Position numbers and translations under genes: made by a program. A DNA stretch of 32,617 nt from Brevibacillus laterosporus LMG 15441 (lineage in GTDB: Bacteria > Bacillota > Bacilli > Brevibacillales > Brevibacillaceae), in contig NZ_CP007807.1 in the NCBI RefSeq assembly GCF_000219535.2, positions 1 through 32,617 of the forward strand. The letters run 5' to 3'. The notes under the pieces were generated by a model. The model was not told the DNA's origin, ran no database searches, and saw nothing but the letters and a program-made list of their open reading frames with translations. Position 1 is the first letter of the stretch. Every line of letters begins with the position of its first letter. This document shows positions 185 to 29,079 of this stretch, in pieces.

Positions 185-481
185 ATTAAAGACATCAAAA
201 AGGTAGAGGACGTTCTACTCTACCATAGGAAAAGAACGGTTAGAACGAATGTGAAATTCTCTGCTCCTATCAAATCTAGTAATCCCTTATCAGGGAAACG
301 TATTCAAAGCTATCAGACTGAAGATGAGCTCCACACGGATACGGAGAATCTCAGGAAAAAATTAGTCGAGCTTGTTTGCAAAGAAGGTACTTTCTCAAGC
401 CTCGCAGTGTTAGAGATGAGCCAACAGCTAGATGAGTATATTGTCCATATGCAAAAAAGGATAAAATCCTATAAACACTAA
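185..481 (+). CDS. Spo0E-family aspartyl-phosphate phosphatase
   Basis: Spo0E-like proteins dephosphorylate Spo0A~P and so delay sporulation. The family signature is in the C-terminal half: a helix with LVELV, then MSQQLDEYIV, matching the family's S-Q-x-L-D-x-x-I motif. The usual call would be GTG at 251 (76 aa), but no clear ribosome site precedes it. The frame stays open upstream to an ATT at 185, placed 5 to 8 bases after a very strong AGGAGGAGGT at 171-180, which would give 98 residues. ATT starts are rare, so the start is uncertain; 251 remains the conservative alternative. The N-terminal extension of either form is not typical of the short members of this family. The gene stands alone, with no receptor or kinase next to it. 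Confidence 0.7.
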   Translation: MKDIKKVEDVLLYHRKRTVRTNVKFSAPIKSSNPLSGKRIQSYQTEDELHTDTENLRKKLVELVCKEGTFSSLAVLEMSQQLDEYIVHMQKRIKSYKH

Positions 482-9529: not shown

Positions 9530-9558
9530 TTGACAGTAACGTGTTACGTTATTATGAT
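9530..9558 (+). promoter_or_regulatory. Sigma-A promoter with an operator inside the spacer
   Basis: TTGACA at 9530-9535 and TATGAT at 9553-9558 are 17 bases apart, a near-consensus sigma-A promoter reading toward the small XRE gene. The spacer contains TAACGTGTTACGTTA (9537-9551), a perfect 6+3+6 inverted repeat. A protein bound there would block RNA polymerase. The half site equals the boxes before both XRE genes, so the XRE repressor is the obvious candidate. Confidence 0.75.
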
Positions 9559-9600: not shown

Positions 9601-9840
9601 ATGGTTCATCAGAATGTCGAGAGAATCAGGCGGGCAAAAGGAATCACTAAGACGCATTTGGCAAAGATATTAGGTCTTTCATTACAAGGATACAGACATA
9701 TTACGTGCGGGCAGGTGAGGCTTGATGTAGAACGCTTGCAGATTATTGCAAATGTATTAGACGTTGAACCAGGCATTTTTTTTGATGATAAACTAACGGA
9801 TTCAGTTATAAAATCTATGAACCAATCTAAAACAGCTTGA
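9601..9840 (+). CDS. Small XRE-family DNA-binding protein
   Basis: 79 residues consisting almost wholly of a helix-turn-helix domain (RIRRAKGITKTHLAKILGLS, then LQGYRHITCG) with the Cro/CI-like continuation VERLQIIANVLDVEPGIFF. The start at 9601 is five bases from GAGGTG; an upstream ATG at 9580 lies ahead of that site. It is read from the strong promoter at 9530-9558, divergent from the broken repressor, in a layout like a CI/Cro switch. The first RRNPP receptor gene follows after 52 bases. It may be a Cro-like antagonist or a co-regulator of the receptor cassette; no target can be read directly. Confidence 0.8.
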   Translation: MVHQNVERIRRAKGITKTHLAKILGLSLQGYRHITCGQVRLDVERLQIIANVLDVEPGIFFDDKLTDSVIKSMNQSKTA

Positions 9841-9892: not shown

Positions 9893-11191
9893 ATGAAAGG
9901 ATTGGCTTTCCAATACCAAACGTTTGGGGAAGGAATGAGAAAACGCAGACAGGACAAGAATTTAAGCCTGTCACAGCTATCCAAAATGACAGGAGTCAGC
10001 AAGGGGGTGATATCAAAAATAGAGTGTGGGGAAACCCGCAAACCCGAATGGCGAACCATTAAACCGCTAGCTATTTCCCTACAGATTCCGTGGGAAGAAG
10101 TCATTGGCTATTATGCAGAAGTGGAACGACGCCCTAAGATTTTACTTGATTTGCTCTCCAAATCCATTTCATTACGACAAACCCCACTGATTAAAAAAGT
10201 AGCGCTGCGTTTTATTCAACTGCCAACTGAGGATAGTTACGAGCTCATGGAAAAGCTGTATGAGTGCTCCCGTTTGGTTAATGACCTTCCTAGCCGTCTC
10301 ACTTTATTCAATCTCATCGTAAGCTACGCTAGGGAAAGAGGAATGCAGAAATATCTAGCTAAAGGTCTGTTGCAAATTTATTTGGTGCAGCGGCAGGATT
10401 TAAAGAAGCTGGGAGAATCCTTTCAAATGGGAGAGGAGGTGTTGCATTACATTGTATTTTTGGCGCAGGAGGAAAGGATTGATTTCCTTTACAAATTGGC
10501 CCTGCAAGCCTATGCATTAAAGAAGTACGAAAAATGTATCGCCCTTAGTAAAGCAGGGATTCGAGAGGATCAGGGCAGTAGTGAATTAAAAGCGAGAGGC
10601 TATCTAGCTATGATTAATTCCCTTTCACGATTAGGGCGATACAAAGCTGTAGAGCGGCACCTAGAGCAATTTCAACAGCTTCCTTATTCTTTTGTAACTG
10701 AGGCAACCTTACTAACAAGAGCGATTTTACACGCAAGGCGACAAGAGTATCAAGTTGCTATCCCATTACTCAAAGAGTGTTTAGACACAAGCAGTCCGTC
10801 TTCTAAAATTCATGTGGTAAATGAGCTTCTGGATATTTTCCTTACCATTAATAATGTGAAAGCCTGCGAAGAGTTATTTCATCAAGAAAAAGAGTGGCTG
10901 TATGTGAACCTGCAAACACCGTACAAGCATTTATCGGTAGGGAAATATTATCGGTTCAAAGGATTTCATCAAATGAAGGCAGGCTATGTGGATGAGGGAT
11001 TTGAGAGTTACAGCAAGAGTCTACTGGTCTATGCAAAACTAAATGCTTTTTTTGAAATGAATGAATGCATCAATGATATCTTGGCTCATTTTGTAGCTTG
11101 CTCCAAGGCTATAACGGTAAAGCAAATCGAACAATTGCAACGTGTGTATCAACAGATTGTTTCTGAAAACTATCAGAGTAGGGGTGCGTAA
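9893..11191 (+). CDS. RRNPP-type HTH+TPR quorum-sensing receptor 1
   Basis: 432 residues: an N-terminal XRE helix-turn-helix (about 14-67, core LSLSQLSKMTGVSKGVISKI) followed by a long all-helical region of TPR-like repeats (about 90-425, for example YLAMINSLSRLGRYKAVERH). This is the architecture of the RRNPP receptors (PlcR, NprR, Rgg, AimR), cytoplasmic transcription factors whose TPR domain binds an imported pheromone. The ATG at 9893 follows AAAGGTGG. Only three bases after its stop begins a 44-codon gene for an exported pro-peptide, the standard receptor-pheromone arrangement. The receptor's targets are unknown. It could also be a generic tetratricopeptide regulator without a peptide ligand, but the neighbour argues against that. 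Confidence 0.8.
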   Translation: MKGLAFQYQTFGEGMRKRRQDKNLSLSQLSKMTGVSKGVISKIECGETRKPEWRTIKPLAISLQIPWEEVIGYYAEVERRPKILLDLLSKSISLRQTPLIKKVALRFIQLPTEDSYELMEKLYECSRLVNDLPSRLTLFNLIVSYARERGMQKYLAKGLLQIYLVQRQDLKKLGESFQMGEEVLHYIVFLAQEERIDFLYKLALQAYALKKYEKCIALSKAGIREDQGSSELKARGYLAMINSLSRLGRYKAVERHLEQFQQLPYSFVTEATLLTRAILHARRQEYQVAIPLLKECLDTSSPSSKIHVVNELLDIFLTINNVKACEELFHQEKEWLYVNLQTPYKHLSVGKYYRFKGFHQMKAGYVDEGFESYSKSLLVYAKLNAFFEMNECINDILAHFVACSKAITVKQIEQLQRVYQQIVSENYQSRGA

Positions 11192-11194
11192 TCT

Positions 11195-11329
11195 ATGAAA
11201 AAAGTAATAGGTATGCTTCTGATGTCTGTAACAATGCTTGTAACGGTCACACTTACTGATTCAGTGGTTCCTACACCAAGCGGGACAAGCCTTCAGGTTC
11301 AACCATCTGATTATGATCCAGGGTATTAA
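11195..11329 (+). CDS. Candidate pheromone precursor 1 (44 aa)
   Basis: A short gene starting three bases after the receptor 1 stop, with AGGGGTG eight bases upstream of the ATG. The peptide starts MKKVIGMLLMSVTMLVTVTL, a clear Sec signal sequence with two Lys residues and a hydrophobic core, then a Ser/Pro/Thr-rich region and the C-terminus QPSDYDPGY. In NprX, PapR and Phr precursors the exported tail is trimmed to a 5-10 residue signal and re-imported by an oligopeptide permease; the tail here is of suitable size. The mature peptide is not determined. It also contains SVVPTPSG, which resembles SVVPYEHG in the second precursor. Confidence 0.75.
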   Translation: MKKVIGMLLMSVTMLVTVTLTDSVVPTPSGTSLQVQPSDYDPGY

Positions 11330-11363
11330 AATCCTGCATTTTGTAAAGCTGTAAACCAGCGAA

Positions 11364-11398
11364 ACACAGGAGCGTTTGCCAGAAAAGCGCTCCTGTGT
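11364..11398 (+). other. Perfect 11-bp hairpin without a T-run, between the cassettes
   Basis: ACACAGGAGCG (11364-11374) pairs perfectly with CGCTCCTGTGT (11388-11398) around a 13-base loop. The next bases are AAAAAGGG, so it lacks the U-tract of an intrinsic terminator. It could protect the upstream receptor-peptide mRNA or attenuate read-through into cassette 2. From here to 11560 I see no gene. Confidence 0.6.
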
Positions 11399-11579
11399 AA
11401 AAAGGGTAGTAGCAGATGGACGTTTCGGTTATGAGGATAGGCTGTACGGAAACCTAAGTAGAAAAGAGCGGCCGTTTCCAGCTATCTAAGGCCGAAGATA
11501 GTCCGATCGAATTTACGAGGTCTACAGGAGGTACAGCTTTAGCTACAAATAGATACGATTGCTTAAAAGGAGTGGTTAC

Positions 11580-12992
11580 ATGATTGATCGTAATCATGTT
11601 AGGGCGCGATCCATACGTAAGGAAATTGAACATCGTCTCCAATTACATGACTACACTCTGAGTAAATTAAGTGAGTTATCCCATATCAATAATGGGCATC
11701 TAAGTGGTTTTTTGAATGGAAATCCTGGCAGGGCATTAACGGTTGCACAATTAGATTCCATTGCAAATGTATTTCATGAGCCTCCTGGCTGGCTGTATGA
11801 CTTGTATATTGATGAATGCTTTCCAAAGGGAAGAGTATCTAGGAGAAGAGTATGTCCCTATCTGATTAGATGTGCCGAGCTGGGCAGACATGACTGCATT
11901 CAGCCCGTTGTCTCAGCCTTATTGGAGCAACGTAAAAACATCGAAATCCTTTTTTATGTAGCCGAACAGCTATTTCAACATGGGAGGCAGGACGAATCAA
12001 TCTACTTTTATCAGTTAGTGATTGATAATGAAAAGGACAGCTATTCAGACCGATTTATTATGAGTCACTATCGTTTATTTCGTTCCTTGCAGGAAACCGA
12101 TATGGAGGAAAATTGGAAGGCTGTTATCCGATTTGAAGCTTATCGCAAAAGATTGTCTGAGCGTCATCAGTTGGATGCACTTCTACAGCTAGCTAATGTA
12201 TGCTTTACATTACATAAGTGGAAAGAAGTGGAGAAGTACGGAGATGAACTAAGGAAATTAGCTACTCTGGTTTACCAAAAGGAACTTTCCAAGCTTAAGA
12301 ATAATCGATACTATCAGCCACTTAAAACCGAGCGTCATTTGGTCGTTTATTATGGACAGGGATATCTGTTAAAGGCAGTGTCTCTGGAAAAACAAGGGCA
12401 TTACGAACAAGCCAAGGAATATGTCTCTGGCTACGCTGATCTTAGCTGGTTTGAACTGCTAGACGATTCTGGACAAGAAGAGGTCGAAAAATTCAATCTG
12501 TGGGCTACCGCAAACATGTATACATTAGACATGCTCATGGGAAATACAAGTGTTCTCGCTGACTACATTGCCTTCCTTGAGGATCACCCTACGGAAATAT
12601 TATCCGGCGTAGTAACAATTATGAAATCAGCCAACCAGCATGGTTTTTTAATAGATCATCTATTAGAGAAATTTTCGGCAGAAATACGTACCTTTGAACA
12701 TTCCCATGATTCCATTTGTGTAGATCGACATCTCCGGTTTCGATATGATCTGGCTATTTACCATTTTCAAAATGAACGGTTTGAAAGTGGAATAATAGAT
12801 ACTCTCCGCTGTCTGGATTTGTCCATCGTGATGAATAATCAGAAGAAGTTCATCCAATGTGTAACACTTTTTGAAGCATATAGATATCACGCCACAGAAC
12901 AACAAAAAAGAGAGTATAAAAAATTGTTGGAGGAGGTGAGAAAGGATGAGGGGATTTTTGCTATCGCTAGTAATGGCTTTTGGAATGTTTAG
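11580..12992 (+). CDS. RRNPP-type HTH+TPR receptor 2
   Basis: 470 residues. The N-terminus has a helix-turn-helix (about 8-65; YTLSKLSELSHINNGHLSGF) ending with LDSIANVFHEPPGWLYDLYIDE, and the rest is helical repeat sequence compatible with TPRs (for example RFIMSHYRLFRSLQETDMEE and YGQGYLLKAVSLEKQGHYEQ). The ATG at 11580 follows AAAGGAGTGG; a TTG at 11559 lies ahead of that site. It differs in sequence from receptor 1 and is not a recent duplicate. Its 3' end overlaps a second exported-peptide gene, again giving a receptor-pheromone pair. The helix-turn-helix suggests a transcriptional regulator, not a Rap-type phosphatase. Targets unknown. Confidence 0.75.
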   Translation: MIDRNHVRARSIRKEIEHRLQLHDYTLSKLSELSHINNGHLSGFLNGNPGRALTVAQLDSIANVFHEPPGWLYDLYIDECFPKGRVSRRRVCPYLIRCAELGRHDCIQPVVSALLEQRKNIEILFYVAEQLFQHGRQDESIYFYQLVIDNEKDSYSDRFIMSHYRLFRSLQETDMEENWKAVIRFEAYRKRLSERHQLDALLQLANVCFTLHKWKEVEKYGDELRKLATLVYQKELSKLKNNRYYQPLKTERHLVVYYGQGYLLKAVSLEKQGHYEQAKEYVSGYADLSWFELLDDSGQEEVEKFNLWATANMYTLDMLMGNTSVLADYIAFLEDHPTEILSGVVTIMKSANQHGFLIDHLLEKFSAEIRTFEHSHDSICVDRHLRFRYDLAIYHFQNERFESGIIDTLRCLDLSIVMNNQKKFIQCVTLFEAYRYHATEQQKREYKKLLEEVRKDEGIFAIASNGFWNV

Positions 12993-13065
12993 TCAAGTAG
13001 CAGATGTAGAAATAGCTAAAGCAGAGCATTCTGTAGTTCCCTATGAACATGGCGTAGGTGGTTAA
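12946..13065 (+). CDS. Candidate pheromone precursor 2 (39 aa)
   Basis: The gene begins inside the last 47 bases of receptor 2 in another frame, with a near-perfect ribosome site AGGAGGTG seven bases before the ATG. The peptide begins MRGFLLSLVMAFGMFSQVAD, a short signal sequence, and ends AEHSVVPYEHGVGG. Overlap of a receptor gene with its pro-peptide gene is typical of Rap-Phr and NprR-NprX pairs. The mature signal is probably within the last 5-10 residues (inference). A strong terminator follows, closing the cassette. It is too short for routine gene callers and may be missing from public annotation. Confidence 0.75.
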   Translation: MRGFLLSLVMAFGMFSQVADVEIAKAEHSVVPYEHGVGG

Positions 13066-13083
13066 TTCTTGTTTTTCATTTGG

Positions 13084-13114
13084 AAAGCACTCCTTTTATC
13101 AGGAGTGCTTTTCT
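13084..13114. terminator. Bidirectional terminator
   Basis: AAAGCACTCC (13084-13093) pairs with GGAGTGCTTT (13102-13111), with T-runs in both directions. It ends the receptor 2 cassette on the plus strand and the O-methyltransferase gene on the minus strand. Confidence 0.85.
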
Positions 13115-24674: not shown

Positions 24675-27600
24675 GTGAATATATCTGAAGTGTCGGTCAA
24701 ACGACCTGTTCTCATTATCATGTTGACCCTGGCAGTCATGATTTTTGGAATCGTTTCTCTGCCGAAATTGGCTATTGATTTGTATCCAGAGCTGAATTTT
24801 CCAGTTGCCGTTGTCGTGACATCTGTGGATGGCGCGGCGCCGAGCGAGGTAGAGAAGCTAGTAACGAAACCGATAGAAAGTGCAGTAGGAACTGTTGCTA
24901 ATTTAAAGGAAGTATCATCTATTTCGATTCAAGGAGCATCACAGGTTATTCTCAGCTTTAATTGGGGGACCGATTTAGATCAAGCTACATTGGAATTGCG
25001 GGAGAAGGTTGATCGAGTGCGACAACTGCTCCCATCCTCAGCGAAATCTCCACAGGTTCTGCGGATTGATCCGAATAGCACGCCGATTATGACATTTGCC
25101 CTAACAGGCGAGGATGATGTCAATCAATTGAAGAAGATAGCAGAGGACTCCATTCAAAACCGCTTAGAAAGAATTGATGGTGTAGCTGGAGTAAATCTGG
25201 TCGGTGGTCAGGATCGCGTGGTGGATGTGGTGCTCGACCCTGCTAAAATTTCGTCGTATGGATTAACCATCGACCAAATTCAGCAGGCGATTGCCAGCAA
25301 CAACCTGTCCGGTTCAGGTGGTGCCGTACGTGAAGGAGATGGCAAATATAACATTCGAGTTCAGGGTGAGTACGATAGTGTAGCTAAAATCGGACTAACA
25401 CCTATTCGCATGGGAAATGGCTCCCTTCGCCTGCAAGATATTGCTACCATCAACGATACTACGGCGAAAATCAATCAGTTCAGTTACGTTAATGGGAAAC
25501 CAAGCTTAGGCATTACCATTACAAAGGCATCTGGTGGAAATACCATTCAGGTAGCGGATGCTGTAAGTCAGGAATTGAAAGAGATTAAGAAGACCTTACC
25601 TTCCCAGTTACAACTAACAACTACGCTGGATTCGTCCACGTTTATTAAAGATTCAATCTACACCACAGCAGAGCATGCCTTGTTCGGTGGATTGTTTGGG
25701 ATTATTATTTTGTTCTTCTTCTTAGGTAGCTTCCAATCAATGATTGTTGCGATCATCGTGCTACCCATCTCGATCATCTCCACCTTTTTGCTGATGTATG
25801 CGACCGGCCAAACGATCAATCTGATTTCCCTATCAGGGCTGACACTCGGACTGGGTTCACTGGTTGACTTCGCGGTCGTAATGCTGGAGAACATTTTCCG
25901 ACAAAGGGAAAAAGGGAAAGGCATGGTAGAAGCTGCGTTAGATGGTTCCAAGGAAGTGGGTACTGCTGTAATGGCTTCTGCTTTGGCGCAGATATGTGTA
26001 TTCCTGCCAATTGCACTAGTTGATGGTATTGCAGCAGAAATTTTTAGACCCTTAGCTCTAACCGTTGTGTATTCTCACATTGCCGCTTTGGTCTTTTCCA
26101 TTATCCTAGTACCAATGTTAAGCTCACGGATACTCAAAAAAGTACCAGAGCATAACAATCGGGAAGGATATCGTGGAATGAACCCGGTAATCTGGTTCAA
26201 TATTGGATTTCACAAGGTAGAAAAAGGCTATAAAAGGCTGTTAGATTTTTCGCTGAATCACCGGAAAACAGTAGCGATTGTTACGGTTGCCATGATGATA
26301 GGTTCTGTAGCGCTGACTCCATTGGTTGGGGCAGAGTTTATGCCATCGATGGATCAGGGACAAGTTACAATTGATATTAAGATGCCTAACGGTAGTGTTT
26401 TGGAAGAAACAAAGAAGGTAGCCCAACAAGTGGAAAAGATAGCGGCGCAAGTACCGGAGCTGGATATTCTGAGCACCTCGATTGGTAGCGGTGGTTCAGC
26501 GGCCGTGGCTACCTCTACCTCTAATAAAGCAACCGTTGATTTAAAACTGGTCGACGTAAAGGATCGTAAACGCTCCACTCCGGAGATAATGGCAGATTTG
26601 CGTAAGCAGGTAGCATCAATTGCGGGTGCTGAAATTAAGGTGAAAGAACAATCTGCTGGTATGTCCACAGGATCGCCTTTACAGATTACCTTACGCGGTG
26701 ATGATATCGAGGTTCTAAAAGATGTGAGCGGGATTATTAAGCAAGAGGTAATCAGTGTCCCGGGAACCAGTAATGTGGTGACCACCTTAGATGATACGCA
26801 GCATGAATTTGAAGTGAAAATCGATGCAGAGAAAGCAAGTATGTATGGGCTAAGCTCTGGACAGATTTTAACGGCTGTGGGTACAGCATTTAACGGACAG
26901 ACGGTGACAAAGTATCGCACGGGTGATGATGAAATCAATGTGCAATTAAAATGGCCCGAGCAGTATCAGGAAGATACGAATTACTTGAATAGCTTGCGCA
27001 TAACTGCACCAGGTGGCGCACAGGTAGCGTTGTCTTCTGTTGCAGAGGTGACAAAAGTAGAGGCACCGCTAACGATTAATCGCTCGAATCAGACTCGTGA
27101 AGTAAAAATCACAGGTGATTTAGCAGGACGTGATCTGAACTCAGTCACTACGGATGTACAAACGAAGCTAGACAAGCTCTCCCTGCCAGATGGCTATAAA
27201 ATTGAGTACGGCGGAGAGAGTAAAGATATGATGGAGTCCTTTAGTAGTCTTGGATTGGCTGTTATTTTGTCAGTCGTCCTACTTTATATGGTAATGGCGG
27301 CCCAATTTGAATCCTTATATACGCCGTTTATTATCATGTTCTCTATCCCGCCTACCTTTGCAGGGGTTATGCTTGGCCTGTTGTTTACCAATACCTCGAT
27401 CAGTGTGTCCGTGTTCATTGGATATATTCTGCTGATTGGTTTGGTCGTTAATAACGCCATCGTATTAATAGATTATGCAAATCAATTGCGAGACAAAGGT
27501 ATGAGTGTAAGGGATGCGATTTTGGAAGCAGGGCCTGTACGCTTGCGTCCCATTCTCATGACGACATTGACTACCATTCTAGCAATTGGTCCATTAGCTT

Positions 27601-27803
27601 TTGCCACAGGCTCTGGTAGTGAATCTCAAGCTCCGATGGCGATCACAGTTATTTTCGGATTAAGCTTTGCTACGCTCATTACCCTAGTGTTGGTTCCAGT
27701 CGTGTATACTTGGTTCGATGATTGGTCTTCTAAACGTAAACACAAGAAAGAACAAAAGCGACTAAAGAAACAACAAGCAGCTATTGCGGTAGCGCAGTCG
27801 TAA
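24675..27803 (+). CDS. RND-family efflux pump (HAE1/SwrC-like)
   Basis: 1042 residues with the full RND plan: helix 1 at 11-30, a large external loop, helices 2-6, a second half starting near residue 530 and a basic tail (KRKHKKEQKRLKKQ). The helix-4 motif reads GLGSLVDFAVVMLEN: Asp398 is present, but the second Asp of AcrB-type pumps is Phe399. In helix 10 the AcrB Lys is replaced by Asn (GLVVNNAIVLIDYAN), as in many Gram-positive members. It exports hydrophobic compounds such as drugs or surfactin-like lipopeptides. The GTG start at 24675 follows GAGGTG. Downstream is the adaptor lipoprotein; no outer-membrane factor is expected in a Gram-positive. Confidence 0.9.
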   Translation: MNISEVSVKRPVLIIMLTLAVMIFGIVSLPKLAIDLYPELNFPVAVVVTSVDGAAPSEVEKLVTKPIESAVGTVANLKEVSSISIQGASQVILSFNWGTDLDQATLELREKVDRVRQLLPSSAKSPQVLRIDPNSTPIMTFALTGEDDVNQLKKIAEDSIQNRLERIDGVAGVNLVGGQDRVVDVVLDPAKISSYGLTIDQIQQAIASNNLSGSGGAVREGDGKYNIRVQGEYDSVAKIGLTPIRMGNGSLRLQDIATINDTTAKINQFSYVNGKPSLGITITKASGGNTIQVADAVSQELKEIKKTLPSQLQLTTTLDSSTFIKDSIYTTAEHALFGGLFGIIILFFFLGSFQSMIVAIIVLPISIISTFLLMYATGQTINLISLSGLTLGLGSLVDFAVVMLENIFRQREKGKGMVEAALDGSKEVGTAVMASALAQICVFLPIALVDGIAAEIFRPLALTVVYSHIAALVFSIILVPMLSSRILKKVPEHNNREGYRGMNPVIWFNIGFHKVEKGYKRLLDFSLNHRKTVAIVTVAMMIGSVALTPLVGAEFMPSMDQGQVTIDIKMPNGSVLEETKKVAQQVEKIAAQVPELDILSTSIGSGGSAAVATSTSNKATVDLKLVDVKDRKRSTPEIMADLRKQVASIAGAEIKVKEQSAGMSTGSPLQITLRGDDIEVLKDVSGIIKQEVISVPGTSNVVTTLDDTQHEFEVKIDAEKASMYGLSSGQILTAVGTAFNGQTVTKYRTGDDEINVQLKWPEQYQEDTNYLNSLRITAPGGAQVALSSVAEVTKVEAPLTINRSNQTREVKITGDLAGRDLNSVTTDVQTKLDKLSLPDGYKIEYGGESKDMMESFSSLGLAVILSVVLLYMVMAAQFESLYTPFIIMFSIPPTFAGVMLGLLFTNTSISVSVFIGYILLIGLVVNNAIVLIDYANQLRDKGMSVRDAILEAGPVRLRPILMTTLTTILAIGPLAFATGSGSESQAPMAITVIFGLSFATLITLVLVPVVYTWFDDWSSKRKHKKEQKRLKKQQAAIAVAQS

Positions 27804-27828
27804 AGGCGAAGAGATAGAGGAGGGGGAA

Positions 27829-29079
27829 ATGAAATTGAAAGCAAAAACAACGATGAATAAAAAAATGATTCTAGTAGCAGCATCCGCCCTGTTCTTGGTA
27901 GCGGGGTGTTCGAATCAAGCGGCAGAGAATACTCCGACAGAACAGACAGAGAGCGTAACACCGGTTCAGATTGAAATGTCTAAGCTAGGGACAGTTTCCT
28001 CTAGTGCAGGCTTTACGGCTAAATTAGCGCCTAGTCAGGATGTGCAGTTAAGTCCAAAATTGTCTGGGAAAATCACCTCCTTACCTGTTCGTTTAGGACA
28101 ATATGTAAAACAAGGAGAAACTTTGTTTAGTGTAGATGAACAAGATGTGATCAATTCGATCAAACAGGCAGAAGCGGCTTATCAGGTAGCTAAGGCGAAT
28201 TTAAATCAAGCAGGCAATAGCTCCAGTCAAGGTCTTGAACAAGCGAAGAATAGCTTGAGCCAAGCCCAAACAGCCCTACAGGATGCAGAACGAAATCAAC
28301 AGCGGATGCAAACGCTATTTAATCAAGGCGCAATTGCTCTACAACAATATGAACAAGCAAATACACAGCTTGCTAATGCAAGAACAGCGGTTGCCAATGC
28401 ACAGGAAGGCCTGAAAGCTGCCACACAAATGTCAGCAGTAGGTGTATCAGAGGCTTCTGTTAAGCAAGCGGCTGTGAGCTTGGAAAATGCTCGGACACAA
28501 CTGGGGAATGCAGTAGTAAAAGCTCCTTTCAGCGGGTACATTTCAAGTGTGAATGGAGCGGTTGGACAGGTGGCTTCTCCACAAAGCCCTATTGTCACAT
28601 TAGTTAATACCAACCCACTTGTTGTGAAGGCTAATTTATCTGAACAGGATATTTCACAGGTGAAGGTTGGCGATGAGGTAAAAGTGAATATCACGGCATT
28701 GGGAAAAGAAATGACAGCTAAAGTAACGGCTGTCAGCCCGGTGATGGATCAACAGCTCAAAGCCTATCCCATCGAAATATCAATCCCTAATCCAAACAAC
28801 GAGCTGAAAGCAGATATGGTTGTGAACATGAATCTAGTAGGGCAACAAGGAAAAGGACAGGAAAAGGTAGTTGTTCCTCGCAAGGCCGTGTTCGATCGCG
28901 ATGGGAAGCAGTATGTTTACATCGTAGAAGGCGAGATAGCAAAGCAAGTCGCGGTAACCACAGGAGAAGGCTCTAGCGAATCCATCGAAATCCTGACAGG
29001 AATTAAGGCAGATCAACAAGTCGTCGTAAAAGGACAGACACTGTTGAAGGATGGAAGTAAGGTAACGATCCAAAAGTAA
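27829..29079 (+). CDS. RND adaptor lipoprotein (membrane fusion protein)
   Basis: 416 residues. A lipoprotein signal with lipobox LVAGC (Cys27) anchors it outside the membrane. Then come a first barrel/lipoyl part (SPKLSGKITSLPVRLGQYVK), a coiled-coil hairpin rich in Ala and Gln (about 110-220), the second lipoyl half (VVKAPFSGYISSVNGAVGQV) and a beta-barrel region (VGDEVKVNITAL). This is the HlyD/MFP family. It follows the RND pump by 25 bases, with AGGAGGGGG before its ATG, and ends at a perfect terminator. It works with the pump in the same complex. Confidence 0.9.
   Translation: MKLKAKTTMNKKMILVAASALFLVAGCSNQAAENTPTEQTESVTPVQIEMSKLGTVSSSAGFTAKLAPSQDVQLSPKLSGKITSLPVRLGQYVKQGETLFSVDEQDVINSIKQAEAAYQVAKANLNQAGNSSSQGLEQAKNSLSQAQTALQDAERNQQRMQTLFNQGAIALQQYEQANTQLANARTAVANAQEGLKAATQMSAVGVSEASVKQAAVSLENARTQLGNAVVKAPFSGYISSVNGAVGQVASPQSPIVTLVNTNPLVVKANLSEQDISQVKVGDEVKVNITALGKEMTAKVTAVSPVMDQQLKAYPIEISIPNPNNELKADMVVNMNLVGQQGKGQEKVVVPRKAVFDRDGKQYVYIVEGEIAKQVAVTTGEGSSESIEILTGIKADQQVVVKGQTLLKDGSKVTIQK

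Follow-up and report, generated by a model that had tools for sequence, protein, structure and literature searches.

Probable tandem of two RRNPP-type receptor/pheromone pairs in Brevibacillus laterosporus LMG 15441

A 32,617-base stretch of Brevibacillus laterosporus LMG 15441 (the window), which is the whole of contig C2 of genome G000 (5,153,859 bases; the other contigs are C1, 5,114,147 bases, and C3, 7,095 bases), very probably encodes two complete and consecutive RRNPP-type receptor/pheromone pairs. Pair 2 is an AloR-AloP pair and pair 1 belongs to a second family; both would act in peptide signalling. The anatomy of the locus, its conservation, its gene order and the family membership of pair 2 are directly established. 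The four genes and the two putative pheromone segments are as follows:

9893..11191, + strand: receptor 1 (R1), 432 aa, with an N-terminal helix-turn-helix (HTH) domain and TPR-like repeats; probably 'cluster 8'
11195..11329, + strand: pro-peptide 1 (P1), 44 aa, starting 3 bp past the R1 stop, with MKK and a hydrophobic stretch, tail ...DYDPGY
11309..11326, + strand: codons for the final six P1 residues, DYDPGY, the putative pheromone 1 (presumed length); a family motif, the same in three genomes
11580..12992, + strand: receptor 2 (R2), 470 aa counted from ATG, AloR family
12946..13065, + strand: pro-peptide 2 (P2), 39 aa, AloP-like, overlapping R2 by 47 bp, tail ...PYEHGVGG, with an AKA cleavage-like site seen by eye
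13045..13062, + strand: codons for the final six P2 residues, EHGVGG, the putative pheromone 2, by analogy with AloP13 SHGRGG

An earlier reading of the letters alone (the sequence-only reading) had described the two cassettes, and its coordinates, sizes, 3-bp spacing and P2 overlap were all correct. Signal-type N-termini ('Sec signals') were judged throughout by our own hydropathy and charge proxy rather than by SignalP.

The order R1-P1-R2-P2 is kept in two further Brevibacillus genomes, G003 and G004, with DNA identities of 89.8% and 96.2%, respectively, for R1, 86.7% and 95.6% for P1, 79.0% and 94.0% for the P1-R2 gap, 90.0% and 96.1% for R2, and 88.3% and 91.7% for P2. Both peptide frames are free of indels in these genomes, and the final six residues of each are invariant across the three. 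The C-terminus, which the sequence-only reading had called variable, is therefore the same in the orthologous copies, and a tail motif is kept in most ORF-bearing members of each family. Changes in P1 fall mainly at third codon positions (0/6/12 at first, second and third positions relative to G003, 1/0/5 relative to G004). The proposal of doubled receptor-peptide pairs thus holds up, with the adjacent short ORFs kept in both genomes and with R2 falling in the AloR13 family. G001 and G002, of the same genus, contain R1 relatives and no R2 relative at E 1e-20, and G000 itself encodes about a dozen more R1 relatives and several R2 relatives.

Pro-peptide ORFs recur behind the receptors of both families. 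An R1 relative is found at E 1e-30 in 28 of 39 genomes of the family. The ORF test for this receptor family required 25 to 65 aa, a ribosome site, a basic start, a hydrophobic stretch and a start between -110 and +60 of the receptor end. Such a signal-type ORF lies behind 85 of 98 R1-type receptors, compared with 11 of 334 control ORFs (ORFs of at least 250 aa from the same fetched loci, not checked as real genes), and none of the 334 controls carries a tail motif of either family. The 98 receptors are matches of at least 370 query residues lying at least 200 bases before the locus end, with near-copies counted once; the search listed 113 matches including fragments, and the longer ones G008:C41, G008:C76, G003:138121, G006:4586532 and G011:5970174 were left out of the count. 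Of the 85 tails, 44 end in (D/N)PG(Y/H/F/W) and 82 have a proline within the last four residues; further forms are EPDW, PEPW and NPQG. At one counted locus (L084) the chosen ORF was wrong, and an alternative ORF there ends DNPGH. When tail classes are placed on the R1 receptor tree (87 of 88 rows, L084 dropped, the ribosome-site test waived for L001, L028 and L088), they change 7 times versus a mean of 35.9 with shuffled labels, none of 200 shuffles being as low, a signal to which near-copies contribute.

For the R2 family, an ORF was found behind 73 of 116 receptors, and 70 of these 73 end in HG plus 1-3 residues; they overlap the receptor most often by 47, 50 or 4 bp. The 116 are the best-scoring loci of several searches rather than a complete sample, and their search stretch (to +190) is wider than that of the control (to +60), which covers the R1 stretch. 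The sequence-only reading had named two outcomes that would speak against it, namely receptor homologues consistently lacking such an ORF and a signal sequence and frame not conserved in relatives. Instead, most relatives of both receptors carry the ORF, at the frequencies just given, with frames and tails kept. The search of related genomes that it proposed likewise recovered an ORF behind most receptors, although the tails are not the hypervariable ones it expected.

Sequence comparison identifies pair 2 as AloR-AloP. Among the R2 relatives that alignment recovered from genome_contigs are six Paenibacillus loci where the start of the receptor corresponds to the published AloR13 primer with 1-3 mismatches. 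The AloR13 counterpart of P. brasilensis (L224) matches the primer with 2 mismatches, is 45% identical to R2 and is paired with a peptide ending in SHGRGG, which is the AloP13 pheromone (PMC7425212; this and the other papers are cited from excerpts). The assignment follows from this combination of an AloR13-like start, the SHGRGG tail and the identity to R2. The comparison is with L224 and not with AloR13 of ATCC 842 itself, and a search with the exact AloR13 primer came up empty both in 75 genomes from a single genus and in genome_contigs. Experiments in Paenibacillus polymyxa and with a B. subtilis reporter showed that AloR13 controls genes in a peptide-dependent manner: a promoter downstream is switched on by the receptor and switched off by the peptide (PMC7425212). 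Like the AloR-AloP systems described there, R2/P2 combines an HTH and TPR receptor with a short ORF overlapping the receptor 3' end. The P2 tail HGxGG resembles AloP13 SHGRGG, and at several sister loci a Spo0E gene follows. Unlike them, R2/P2 has no Spo0E gene behind it and adjoins a second pair of another family upstream. The missing Spo0E does not exclude membership, since in P. polymyxa no more than 6 Alo systems are followed by spo0E, according to PMC7425212. For P. terrae, the same source reports that 27 of 40 Alo receptors have a peptide gene behind them.

Pair 1 is assigned by elimination. For a B. laterosporus LMG 15441 plasmid, a 2023 survey names two pairs, one AloR-AloP and one 'cluster 8' (PMC10075063). 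Only one of the two small contigs, the window, holds both receptor kinds (on C3, R1 has no matches and R2 has one), so that pair 1 is most likely the cluster 8 pair. R1/P1 fits as the survey's second pair, with the difference that the survey treats the carrier as a plasmid. The tandem is thus known in kind, and the pair itself has essentially been named in silico in print already, as far as the survey goes (PMC10075063). A literature search gave no other relevant report for Brevibacillus receptor-peptide pairs among the matches listed.

Domain and fold comparisons bear out the HTH and TPR architecture proposed for both receptors, more fully for R1. R1 is above the Pfam cut-offs for HTH_3 and TPR_14, whereas R2 exceeds a cut-off only for TPR_2 (27.1 vs 27 bits) and has a weak HTH_3 match below it (15.4 bits, cut-off 23). 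Neither receptor matched any NCBIfam family above cut-off. The AlphaFold2 models of both are all-helical, with a pLDDT of 90.0 for R1 (11 sequences) and 89.0 for R2 (18 sequences), and a profile-to-profile alignment of R1 with R2 spans most of the R1 length (97.9% probability, 15% identity). When solved structures were searched by sequence, R1 gave matches to HTH domains along with spurious ones, and R2 gave no useful match. The top Foldseek match of the R1 model is the PlcR-PapR7-DNA complex (3u3w), and AimR and Rap entries are among the best 50, beside many unrelated TPR proteins. PlcR is a transcription factor with HTH and TPR domains and a short peptide ligand; its identity to R1 in the fold alignment is 15%, and the PapR tail differs from the P1 and P2 tails. 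The R1 fold also matches AimR structures (5zw6, 6jg5, 6jg9) at 12-13% identity. The arbitrium system AimR-AimP likewise consists of a receptor, a peptide gene and a regulated downstream gene (PMC7425212); by contrast, the tandem lies on the chromosome in G003 and adjoins chromosomal sequence in G004.

The order of the two families is recurrent. Both occur in 21 of the 39 genomes, and six R1-R2 pairs lie within 6 kb of each other (G000, G003 twice, G004, G018, G022), all on the same strand with R1 upstream and with a widest gap of 3.6 kb; one orthologous locus accounts for three of the six, and unrelated genes intervene in G018 and G022. Random placement predicts 0.12 such R1-R2 pairs within 4 kb. 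Related arrangements are found in phages. SecTim467 (L134, 5001-8332) carries R1-P1-Spo0E-R2, its P1 tail being AYTDDPGY, in a region described as homologous to B. laterosporus under the section 'Transposable Region' (PMC4909266), and Sundance (L135, 3992-5886) carries R1-P1-Spo0E. SecTim467 and Sundance are phages of B. laterosporus. An IMG/VR contig (L127) holds R1-P1 and R2 with ~2 kb between them and corresponds to G003:1168351-1173060. No peptide was found behind R2 in SecTim467 or L127. Scanning viral contigs with a single R1 or R2 protein gave no relative; the R1 alignment instead found 13.

Spo0E genes accompany many of these receptors. In G000 there are 11 PF09388 matches at E 0.01, 7 of which lie 329-499 nt behind a same-strand receptor (four R1-type, one R2-type, one R2 fragment and one distant R2-like), and 3 of which have no such receptor neighbour. 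A loose motif search found a Spo0E-like frame at most 1 kb behind 34 of the 116 R2-type receptors. Beside the R1-P1-R2-P2 tandem, the genome scan at E 0.01 gave no PF09388 match. The window itself contains one:

329..478, + strand: Spo0E-like domain, PF09388 match; its G004 equivalent lies 446 nt behind an AloR-type receptor and has an identical 50-residue protein stretch

In G000, an insertion sequence (IS) lies between the receptor at C1:4011325-4012731 and this gene, which is read as the severed partner of that receptor, as its sequence context suggests. An aloR-aloP-spo0E unit is intact in G004 and split in G000, where the chromosome contig has the receptor and its peptide and the 'plasmid' contig has Spo0E. 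At three other loci (L141, L148, L150; genomes G034, G009, G028), two to three AloR-type receptors stand in tandem arrays, accompanied by a peptide gene and Spo0E-like frames.

If both pairs work as described for AloR13, P1 and P2 would each be exported via Sec, and cleavage outside the cell would leave roughly the last six residues of each as its pheromone (DYDPGY; EHGVGG). An oligopeptide permease would take the pheromone back in, where it would bind the TPR groove of its own receptor, and the receptor would then alter its grip on DNA adjoining its operon. We infer export, processing, import, binding and target for P1 and P2 in this way, and with them quorum sensing at the tandem. The most likely nearby target of pair 1 would be R2 itself, because a 250-bp gap between pair 1 and R2 replaces the place that Spo0E takes in the phage version. 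Because the gene downstream of pair 1 is R2, one may reasonably guess that pair 1 feeds into pair 2 as a relay. It is a doubtful though possible extension that the locus is a two-pheromone relay in which pair 1 (DPGx) sets the level of pair 2 (HGxGG), with the second receptor placed where sister loci have Spo0E and with the arrangement repeatedly assembled or passed among chromosomes, prophage and phage.

Several observations weigh against two signalling pairs. The sequence-only reading had credited both peptide genes with proper ribosome sites, which stands for P2 (AGGAGGT, 8 nt ahead of the ATG), whereas that of P1 is weak, a G-rich stretch in which a 4-base match to AAGGAGGT failed. The three-genome comparison has few changes, and P2 shows no clear third-position excess relative to G003 (4/5/5; 1/3/6 relative to G004). 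The peptide criteria were failed by 13 of the 98 R1 relatives, including the window's own and the G004 copy (ribosome site), and by 43 of the 116 R2 relatives, some of them additional copies within receptor arrays; when the stretch was narrowed, 48 of 87 places passed in the genome_contigs loci. Foldseek TM-scores of the R1 model to RRNPP entries are low (query-normalised 0.25-0.44). For the R2 model the best 25 matches contain no RRNPP receptor and other repeat proteins are on top, with AimR at rank 26 and Rap at ranks 36, 46 and 47; given this ranking, R2 membership rests on sequence. R1 and R2 have no real BLASTP similarity and are linked by the profile-profile alignment only.

These points bear on three other explanations. 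P1 and P2 might be chance or relic frames behind two ordinary HTH-TPR regulators, an idea to which the weak P1 ribosome site and the similar ORFs behind 11 unrelated control genes lend some colour. The 334-gene control led us to reject a chance origin of the two ORFs: their frequency among relatives, mostly with one tail motif per family, the absence of that motif from all controls, and tails that follow the receptor tree make this explanation highly improbable. It is only slightly easier to credit that the peptides are intracellular or membrane partners of the receptors and not secreted signals. Small membrane peptides share signal-type N-termini, and export of P1 and P2 is predicted only; against this, growth medium held AloP fragments without the tail and external synthetic SHGRGG switches the AloR13 reporter (PMC7425212), and the tail is the conserved part, as expected for a ligand. 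Somewhat less improbable, yet still unlikely, is a leftover, in which the targets of one receptor or of both are gone and the tandem goes back to an element with Spo0E between the pairs. The R1-P1-Spo0E-R2 order of SecTim467 and the missing Spo0E match near the tandem are in keeping with such a history, but all four reading frames, those of the receptors and those of the peptides, are open and conserved in three genomes (R1 and R2 at 90-96% DNA identity). Two complete receptor/pheromone pairs thus remain the preferred interpretation.

The surroundings of the tandem contain further features:

9530..9558, + strand: sigma-70-like promoter TTGACA-17-TATGAT, with 11/12 consensus matches; possible start of an xre-R1-P1-R2-P2 unit
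9601..9840, + strand: small HTH_3 protein of 79 aa directly upstream of R1, its DNA 97-99% identical in G003 and G004
11364..11398, + strand: 11-bp inverted repeat ACACAGGAGCG/CGCTCCTGTGT in the P1-R2 gap, without a T tail; the arms are the same in three genomes and the loop varies
13082..13113, + strand: terminator-like hairpin 3' of P2
31319..32617, + strand: IS element of 1,299 bp with an rve integrase-core transposase, 100% identical to C1:4009906-4011204

The region has 9 promoter-like sites versus 9.8 in shuffles, which is no excess, and 2 terminator-like hairpins versus 3.0 expected in shuffles. The P1-R2 gap folds better than its own shuffles (z -3.2). An Rfam search of the gap gave no match at E 1, with three sub-gathering-score matches elsewhere in the window, and a genome search for the gap as a repeat element at E 0.001 returned only the gap itself.

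The carrier deserves separate consideration. The plasmids listed for B. laterosporus LMG 15441 are pBrla33 (32,617 bp) and pBrla07 (7,095 bp), with RepA listed for pBrla07 (PMC6978878). The window is colinear, in inverted orientation, with 772177-805562 of the single-contig G003 genome (pieces at 82-90% identity), and this match falls exactly where the G000 chromosome goes from 4009793 to 4009906. In G004, window base 1 corresponds to C4:11071, next to the counterpart of C1:4011205 at C4:11069 on the same contig, with no IS between them. The IS is flanked as GAT|IS|CTG on the chromosome contig and as CTG|IS|GAT on the circle, so that the 3-bp target duplications match only crosswise. Both insertion points are, by eye, hairpins, uninterrupted in G003 (left) and G004 (right). 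For the duplications to pair, the window segment has to lie in the chromosome with an IS copy on either side. To judge from these junctions, the contig filed as plasmid pBRLA33 is therefore most likely a piece of the chromosome flanked by two direct IS copies. The circle would have arisen by recombination or as an artefact of assembly, and the sequence fits either. Scanning the window ORFs, apart from the large ones at 24675-29079 and most of those shorter than ~115 aa, turned up no replication family. The two large ORFs at 24675-29079 look by eye like an RND-type efflux pair. Contig C3 (L070; 1915-3339 and 3626-3745) carries an AloR-type receptor, a peptide ending in HGMGG and a Spo0E gene, as well as a 271-aa ORF similar by eye to rolling-circle replication proteins.

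Beyond what is in print, this analysis adds the tail codes, the Spo0E link, the recurrent R1-before-R2 order and a corrected carrier; one listed 'multilingual plasmid' is put in doubt, as its carrier looks chromosomal. The Spo0E link (seven of 11 genes, plus one apparently split by an IS) suggests that part of sporulation timing, also for two phages, may be tied to peptide signals. If the two pairs function as proposed, B. laterosporus would read two different peptide signals at one locus, and its pheromone code, with tails DPGx and HGxGG, would be open to testing with synthetic hexapeptides.

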